DNA of 64,000 nt, from the NCBI RefSeq assembly GCF_025376885.1, contig NZ_JAHUBR010000001.1, positions 682,001-746,000 of the forward strand, in the 5' to 3' direction. Of this stretch, positions 60,331 to 61,627 are shown in pieces (the stretch's first letter is position 1; each line of letters opens with the position of its first letter). The position numbers and the translations under genes were made by a program. The DNA is from Pseudoruegeria sp. SHC-113. Its GTDB lineage: Bacteria > Pseudomonadota > Alphaproteobacteria > Rhodobacterales > Rhodobacteraceae. Under the pieces are notes generated by a model. That model ran no database searches and was not told the DNA's origin. It saw only the letters and a program-made list of their open reading frames with translations.

Positions 60331-61566
60331 TTAGGCCGGTGCCGCAGGGTTGGCGGGCTGCGCGCCGAAGTGCTTGCGGTTCAGCCCGATCAGCAGCGCG
60401 ATCATGGCGATCTGGAAGGCCACGGCGACGCCGGAGAGCGCCCAGTAGGCAAGGCCGAATTTCGCGATCAGCCCGCTCGCCACCAGCCCCTTGTTGATCC
60501 AGAACTGCAGCAGAACGCTCATCGCCACACCGGGGCAGACCAGCGCATAGGAGCCGGGCGAGGCCTCCGCCCCCCAGAGGAAGCGCGCGCCGTAACCTTG
60601 GCGCGCCAGCACCATCAGCCCGAGCAGTCCGAAGAGGATCTGGACAGAGAGGAACCGCGTCAGGCTCATCAGCGTGTCGGCTGGGGCGGTGTGGCCGCCA
60701 AAGAGGCTGTGCAGCCCGTGGCCCTGCCGCAGAGTGAGGATGGCAAGGATCGTCATCAGCGGGATCAGGATCATCAACGTCGGGGCGGTCTCCTGCGCGG
60801 CGCCGTGCTCCATCATGGCGCGCAGGCCAAGGATCATCGCGAGCCCTGCGATCAGCGCGGCGGTGATCAGGAAGAAGGTCGAGAAGATCAGGCTCAGACC
60901 GGCGGTGAGCGTCAGTTGGCTCATCGCGGCCGGGGCGGCCATGCCGACACCGATCATGGCGAAGCCGAAGGCGGGCAGGATCTGGGCGAAGGAGTTGTTC
61001 TTACTGCAGTCAAAGCCGCCGTGCACCAGCACCCGGCCCAGAAAACCGCCCAGCAAGCGGAAGGCCAGCACGCCAATGGCCAAAAAGCCGGCCATCGCCA
61101 GCGGGAAGAGGTATTCCACCACGCCCCAGAGGCCGGGCACGAAGACGAGGCCGAGGATGAACAGCATGTTCACCGACATCGCCAGCGCCAGCGGCAGCGC
61201 CATCAGCTGGCTTTCGGCATTGCTCGCGCGGAGGGCCTTGCCCCGCTCGGACGACAGAAAGGGTTTGAGCCGGGAGAGGTTCCAGGCCAGCGCGCGCAGG
61301 TTCAGCACGGCAAAGCCCGCAATGCCAAAGAGCGCGATCAGAATCATGCCTTGCAGGGCAGGCGTGCCCGACAGGAAAGCCGCCTGTATGTCGCCAAACA
61401 CCGGTACCGGGCGGCCCACATGCGGGATCCAGAACATCAGGTACATGAAGAAGGTCACCGCAAGGCCCCCGGCCCCGACAGAGGCGAGGAAATACTGCGG
61501 TGCGTATGTCTCGGAGGGGCGGGGCGGCACGGCGGGGCCTTGGGGAAGGGCAGATGTCTTGCGCAT
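60331..61566 (-). CDS. Multi-spanning membrane protein, TsoY/SLAC1-like (tentative)
   Basis: 411 residues with about ten or eleven hydrophobic helices. QYFLASVGAGGLAVTFFMYLMFWIPH begins the first; GGFDCSKNNSFAQILPAF near residue 205 contains a Cys-Ser-Lys-Asn-Asn motif between helices that may be the active or ligand site. The general layout resembles the TehA/SLAC1 transporters and, from memory, the TsoY (seleno)protein family where the Cys position can be selenocysteine; I cannot confirm this. Start at 61566 has GGAG six bases upstream. A palindromic operator covers its promoter. Confidence 0.7.
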   Translation of the reverse strand: MRKTSALPQGPAVPPRPSETYAPQYFLASVGAGGLAVTFFMYLMFWIPHVGRPVPVFGDIQAAFLSGTPALQGMILIALFGIAGFAVLNLRALAWNLSRLKPFLSSERGKALRASNAESQLMALPLALAMSVNMLFILGLVFVPGLWGVVEYLFPLAMAGFLAIGVLAFRLLGGFLGRVLVHGGFDCSKNNSFAQILPAFGFAMIGVGMAAPAAMSQLTLTAGLSLIFSTFFLITAALIAGLAMILGLRAMMEHGAAQETAPTLMILIPLMTILAILTLRQGHGLHSLFGGHTAPADTLMSLTRFLSVQILFGLLGLMVLARQGYGARFLWGAEASPGSYALVCPGVAMSVLLQFWINKGLVASGLIAKFGLAYWALSGVAVAFQIAMIALLIGLNRKHFGAQPANPAAPA

Positions 61567-61577
61567 AGCGGGCTCCA

Positions 61578-61627
61578 TTACATTCAGAAGTTTGAATGTA
61601 ATATATGCGAGAATTTGAATATGTAAA
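61578..61627 (-). promoter_or_regulatory. Promoter with palindromic operator (ATTC-N8-GAAT)
   Basis: On the minus strand: -35 TTTACA (61627-61622), 16 bp, -10 TATATT (61605-61600), each a 5/6 match. From 61578 to 61601 runs a perfect dyad TTACATTCA-N6-TGAATGTAA overlapping the transcription start. Its core ATTC-N8-GAAT (61582-61597) equals the motif of SqrR/BigR-type ArsR repressors. A further GAATTTGAAT lies at 61611. Classical repressor geometry. Confidence 0.8.

Follow-up and report, generated by a model that had tools for sequence, protein, structure and literature searches.

The tsoY locus and its promoter

We analyzed a 64,000-nucleotide stretch of the Pseudoruegeria sp. SHC-113 genome (the window), which carries a tsoY-family gene on its minus strand at 60331-61566. 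The open reading frame has 411 codons (411 aa), with the ATG at 61566-61564 and the stop codon at 60333-60331. Between 59157 and 64000 it sits among cobalamin genes (cobN-like, GNAT, tsoY, a gene for a GFA-domain protein, cobO-like). The cobN, GNAT and cobO neighbors recur in some 10-25 relatives, with no evident functional reason.

A GGAG at 61573-61576 is the likely ribosome-binding site, judged by inspection of the sequence. Further upstream a -35 box (TTTACA, 61627-61622) and a -10 box (TATATT, 61605-61600) are separated by 16 bp and together match 10 of 12 consensus positions, where shuffled sequences expect 0.1 such promoters, which confirms the good boxes reported in a preliminary description of this DNA. 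The perfect palindrome with 9-bp arms reported there is also present, as ATTACATTC-AGAAGTTT-GAATGTAAT at 61577-61602 (operator O1), with its ATTC-N8-GAAT core at 61582-61597 just downstream of the -10 box. That description overlooked a second, degraded copy, ATTCAAATTCTCGCAT at 61605-61620 (operator O2), which begins 23 bp upstream of O1, and lies between the -35 and -10 boxes; in relatives both copies are often intact, 24-25 bp apart. The core is the recognition sequence deduced for SqrR of Rhodobacter capsulatus and is found under E. coli YgaV too (PMC9774250). An operator of this kind overlapping the promoter marks the SqrR/BigR/SoxR regulon, and tsoY has one.

Occurrence of the operator in the genome and among orthologues

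The O1 palindrome is not a chance occurrence: the 3.9-Mb genome has no other copy of its 22-bp form and matches the 8-base core alone at just 12 sites. Besides the tsoY site, three of these 12 precede sulfur operons. Two lie in the sox cluster of contig 5, upstream of soxX and of soxB, where the SoxX, SoxY, SoxA, SoxB and SoxC models all score above their cut-offs. The third, at 9626 of contig 4, precedes an operon (L328:9768-14506) for a YgaP_TM protein, a Blh-type persulfide dioxygenase, a TIGR01244/SQR fusion (ST-SQR) and a SulP transporter, and this operon closely resembles a tsoY neighborhood of a presumed gammaproteobacterium described below. The other eight sites, seven within predicted genes and one beside ybaB, are not sulfur-related.

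The site is also conserved between genera. Of 296 Rhodobacteraceae genomes sampled, 81 have tsoY, and in 49 of the 80 usable loci an exact ATTC-N8-GAAT stands no more than 100 bp ahead of the start, compared with a mean of 0.325 and a maximum of 2 in 200 rounds of dinucleotide shuffling, a figure that is not a strict probability given that the loci share descent and are not fully independent. The motif is dense there, with 69 matches in 8 kb of upstream DNA, whereas 1.149 Mb of flanking sequence holds 6. Nineteen loci have two exact tandem copies spaced 24-26 bp apart, and between genomes the half-sites are constant while the letters of the spacer vary. Among sox loci examined in relatives, five of eight have the exact site. 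The operator had been assigned to the SqrR/BigR kind before, and its identity with the deduced R. capsulatus site, its conservation and its sharing with the sox and persulfide-dioxygenase promoters bear this out.

The exact operator is absent upstream of the remaining 31 of the 80 orthologues. Seven of these (L049, L100, L110, L111, L113, L115 and L118) share a different palindrome just upstream, approximately GTGAC-N4-GTCACCGTC, which possibly serves a different regulator. In L314 (two sites), L323 and L324, which lie outside the Rhodobacteraceae, the tsoY promoter has ATTA-N8-TAAT, a palindrome that shares its 16-bp geometry with the SqrR site and may represent a variant specificity of an ArsR-type repressor.

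Candidate repressors

The preliminary description placed the repressor outside the window and suggested looking for an ArsR gene with two sensing cysteines. There is indeed no SqrR-type repressor within the window, and the genome has two candidates elsewhere. One is SoxR of the sox cluster (C5:137427-137804, C57 and C123); the other (C3:195844-196134, C53 and C119) is 63% identical to it. In both the putative sensing cysteines are 66 residues apart; the equivalent cysteines of YgaV are C31 and C98 (PMC9774250). The NCBIfam BigR equivalog model, with a cut-off of 155, gives the two proteins 95 and 112 bits, and the TsoR model (ArsR-type regulator of the Tso system) gives them 45 and 55. Judged by sequence, both are SqrR/BigR-type repressors and not BigR equivalogs. 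We considered the second repressor as a regulator of its own cluster and rejected this, as neither an exact operator nor sulfur genes lie beside it.

Across the 80 tsoY genomes, the operator is present in 49 of 76 with a close SqrR-type homologue versus none of four with a weak or no homologue (p=0.02), and it is more common with both repressors (35/45) than with SoxR alone (14/31; p=0.007), the repressor classes being assigned by hand from search E-values. It is plausible that SoxR and the second repressor share the tsoY operator, because SoxR and sHdrR of Hyphomicrobium bind the same DNA fragments (PMC12423496).

Protein family and fold

The preliminary description suspected a relation to TsoY, and the profile search turned this into an assignment, with NF047644 (TsoY family) matching over its full length (profile 1-378 of 378) at 492 bits against a cut-off of 150. 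The selenoprotein TsoY model, NF047643, reaches 40.9 bits against 250; the codon of C344 (60535-60537) is TGC and there is no in-frame UGA, which makes this protein a Cys form and not a selenoprotein. The TsoY name reportedly goes back to Haft and Tolstoy 2025, and our literature search found no function for the family.

The comparison with SLAC1 that was proposed at the outset holds at the level of the fold and not at that of the sequence profile. Pfam families, including SLAC1 (PF03595), gave no match to the protein in the profile search, NCBIfam likewise gave no SLAC1/TDT match, hhalign of TsoY against PF03595 gave an insignificant probability of 0.4% (0.3-4% over settings), and no PDB chain homologous by sequence was found. 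The AlphaFold model, built with 44 orthologues, has a pLDDT of 94.9 and ten long helices. In Foldseek and VIA-align searches with this model the TehA, SLAC1 and SLAH structures came far on top, with 22 entries at Z 25-30 (about 29 for TehA/SLAC1) and an rmsd of about 3-4 Å over about 300 residues, while the next unrelated match had a Z of 14.6. A ten-helix SLAC1/TehA fold is thus well supported by the predicted structure for a protein that is not a Pfam SLAC1 member by sequence.

A conserved cysteine at the predicted gate position

The GGFDCSKNN stretch that the preliminary description picked out as a membrane-embedded Cys motif is present, but its cysteine, C187 (codon 61008-61006), is Cys in only 13 of 80 orthologues and Val in 44, and in the model it lies in the TM4-TM5 loop and not inside a long helix. 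For its poor conservation we rejected it as the functional site, in favor of C344. C344, in the SYALVCPGVA stretch of helix 9, is by comparison invariant in 80 of 80 Rhodobacteraceae sequences and in 88 of 88 when other Pseudomonadota are included, and 66 of 81 TsoY proteins have a single Cys. H49, N96, N133, E151, R280 and Q385 are invariant polar residues. Selenoprotein TsoY has the motif UxxV (2026 review, PMC13188914), which C344-P-G-V347 fits and C187 does not. By this sequence motif C344 fits as the counterpart of the selenocysteine, although a Sec-containing TsoY was not found in 398 Pseudomonadota genomes. The selenium link made earlier survives in this form, as a Sec residue in relatives; for a selenium compound as the substrate we found no evidence and dropped it.

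In five of five MAFFT strategies and most hhalign settings, C344-P345 pairs with the Phe-Pro of TM9 in the SLAC1 family, where the Phe is F450 of Arabidopsis SLAC1, counted in the PDB alignment. F450 and its counterpart F262 of HiTehA are the pore-blocking gate residue, and P451 is a helix breaker (PMC10645844). TsoY keeps the Pro as P345 and has Cys for the gate Phe in all orthologues. Since C344-P345 aligns with Phe450-Pro451, the gate Phe appears to have been replaced by a thiol in TsoY, and by a selenol in relatives, a conclusion that rests on motif, order and fold together.

Association with sulfur oxidation

Genomes with tsoY are enriched in soxB, which scores above the cut-off in 72 of 81 genomes with tsoY versus 122 of 215 without it (odds ratio 6.1, p=5e-8); it is missing in nine tsoY genomes, and a congener of the present genome has neither gene. 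In Rhodobacteraceae, tsoY is mostly monocistronic among unrelated genes, and we found no conserved operon partner there, the contexts varying between cobalamin genes, smc, lrgAB and GntR. An lrgA gene, with lrgB, follows tsoY on the same strand in L044:9674-10799 and also in L080, L089, L099 and L123.

A gene linkage comes from outside the Rhodobacteraceae. In G510, which we infer from its genes and distance to be a gammaproteobacterium, tsoY lies in a cluster read in one direction with genes for a CsoR-type repressor, a peroxiredoxin, a TDT/SLAC1 protein, an octaheme tetrathionate-reductase-family cytochrome, a persulfide dioxygenase (SDO), a TIGR01244/SQR fusion, SulP and a rhodanese. The dioxygenase, SQR fusion and SulP are 58%, 54% and 58% identical to the proteins of the contig 4 operon, which means that one and the same module is connected with tsoY in two lineages, here through a shared operator and in G510 through gene linkage. 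This linkage supports a sulfur role independently of the operator. A true SLAC1/TDT gene also adjoins tsoY in three lineages (L312:8969-10093, L325:7169-8272 and L137:5779-6783), and it is conceivable that TsoY and the adjacent protein form a mixed trimer. A 5-kb contig in a metagenome-assembled genome labelled Desulfobulbus (L258) bears a tsoY of Rhodobacteraceae type with 61% identity and is likely a binning contaminant.

Interpretation

The preliminary description had proposed a sulfur- or selenium-compound transporter induced by reactive sulfur; narrowed to a sulfur-anion transporter, this is the best-supported reading. In the form we consider probable, TsoY is a SLAC1-fold channel for sulfur oxyanions whose gate is a thiol, and sulfane sulfur would derepress its gene along with those of Sox and persulfide oxidation. 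An ArsR repressor of the SqrR/BigR/SoxR type would repress tsoY by occupying the ATTC-N8-GAAT operators, which cover the -10 box and the start point. Sulfide, thiosulfate or polysulfide would raise intracellular sulfane sulfur, which would bridge the two cysteines of SoxR or of the second repressor and release it from the DNA. TsoY would then be made together with the Sox enzymes and the products of the persulfide dioxygenase/SQR-fusion/SulP operon, and would most likely act as an inner-membrane SLAC1-type channel conducting a sulfur oxyanion that the pathway produces or consumes. Persulfide dioxygenase makes sulfite in the cytosol, so sulfite or thiosulfate are the obvious candidates for the cargo, with outward passage the more likely. 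The regulon and the fold are the well supported parts of this reading, and the computations also show the family, the operator and the conserved Cys; substrate, direction and thiol chemistry, like repressor binding and induction, are what we infer.

The gate itself allows a more specific proposal. The F262A exchange in TehA raises conductance, and C344 in place of the blocking Phe could likewise open the pore at the constriction. Sulfur species on their way through the pore probably come into contact with this Cys or react with it, and for sulfite or sulfane sulfur such a reaction could be reversible. TsoY may then represent a thiol- or selenol-gated anion channel of the SLAC1 fold, with the pore-blocking Phe exchanged for Cys throughout the family (Sec in some members). 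Its gate would itself bind, sense or relay sulfite or sulfane sulfur, and its expression would be under a repressor that senses sulfane sulfur. We offer this tentatively, with rather less confidence than the channel role as such.

The same findings can be read in other ways. TsoY could be an inward path for sulfane sulfur or thiosulfate like SoxT/YeeE, bringing in a cytosolic substrate or the signal for the repressor and using C344 as a YeeE-type Cys. This would suit the regulon shared with sox and the one invariant cysteine of the pore helix; YeeE/YedE transporters also have Cys-to-Sec members (PMC13188914), and there is a precedent in the roles of SoxT1A/B in Hyphomicrobium (PMC11582611). 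We think it unlikely, however, as the fold is that of SLAC1 and not of YeeE, the sox cluster already has a YeeE/SoxT-like protein of its own (L041:9750-10907), and thiosulfate oxidation by a complete Sox system takes place in the periplasm, so that mass import is unneeded (PMC11582611). A general anion channel for chloride, bicarbonate, nitrate or dicarboxylate, balancing charge or pH during sulfur oxidation and with C344 as a mere redox gate, seems to us quite unlikely. SLAC1/TehA relatives do conduct such anions, and a SulP transporter gene belongs to the tsoY regulon here and to the tsoY cluster in G510, but the association with persulfide and thiosulfate genes is narrow, and a Cys/Sec that never varies points to sulfur or redox chemistry.

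It is improbable that TsoY is no channel at all but a membrane-embedded thiol/selenol enzyme or sulfur carrier that has kept the SLAC1 fold. The sole conserved Cys, with Sec in relatives, and the invariant polar residues speak for it, yet the fold is that of a channel with the Cys at its pore gate, a catalytic domain is absent, and TDT/SLAC1 genes adjoin tsoY in the three lineages named above. Most improbable in our judgment is a coincidental sulfur link, with the operator serving some unrelated regulator. The orthologues lacking the exact operator, and the other palindrome that seven of them share, could be taken this way; against it, sox and persulfide-dioxygenase promoters of the same genome have the site, its presence tracks close SqrR-type repressors, and the gammaproteobacterial linkage is independent of it.

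What is new here is the regulon and the pair of candidate repressors, the fold, the cysteine at the gate position and the independent gene cluster. Together they provide a named family, for which we found no reported role, with a testable hypothesis, a SLAC1-fold sulfur-anion channel wired to Sox and persulfide oxidation, and C344 is the single residue to mutate. To our knowledge, the passage of sulfite and thiosulfate across the inner membrane in bacterial sulfide and thiosulfate oxidation is only partly known. If our reading is true, it would explain why some TsoY members spend a selenocysteine at the gate position, and a redox-gated member would join the channel fold known from stomata and TehA.

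Comparison with known systems

The regulation resembles that of the sulfane-sulfur-responsive SqrR, BigR and SoxR repressors in its ATTC-N8-GAAT sites and its two two-cysteine candidates; it differs in that both repressors fall below the BigR equivalog cut-off, and their binding at tsoY is predicted from sequence. Within the TsoY family, the protein has the full-length match far over the cut-off and an invariant CPGV that fits the UxxV of selenoprotein TsoY, but it is the Cys form, and no Tso genes (the three selenoprotein operon) were noted beside it. With the SLAC1/TehA channels (TDT, PF03595) it shares the ten-helix fold, the aligned TM7 PTLxI and TM9 x-P motifs and the TDT gene adjacent in three lineages, whereas sequence similarity is insignificant, the gate Phe is Cys and the stretch from TM7 to TM9 is longer by about 20 residues.

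The likeness to the sulfite exporters TauE, YeiH/SuyZ and Ssu1 is one of proposed role, namely sulfite or thiosulfate export during persulfide or thiosulfate oxidation. Ssu1 belongs to the TDT family, while TauE and YeiH are of transporter families other than that of TsoY, whose substrate is predicted. The SoxT/YeeE thiosulfate transporters (PF04143) are alike in belonging to a sulfur regulon, in being Cys-based and in having Sec-containing relatives; their fold is unrelated to that of TsoY, and the sox cluster of this genome encodes a separate YeeE/SoxT-like protein.
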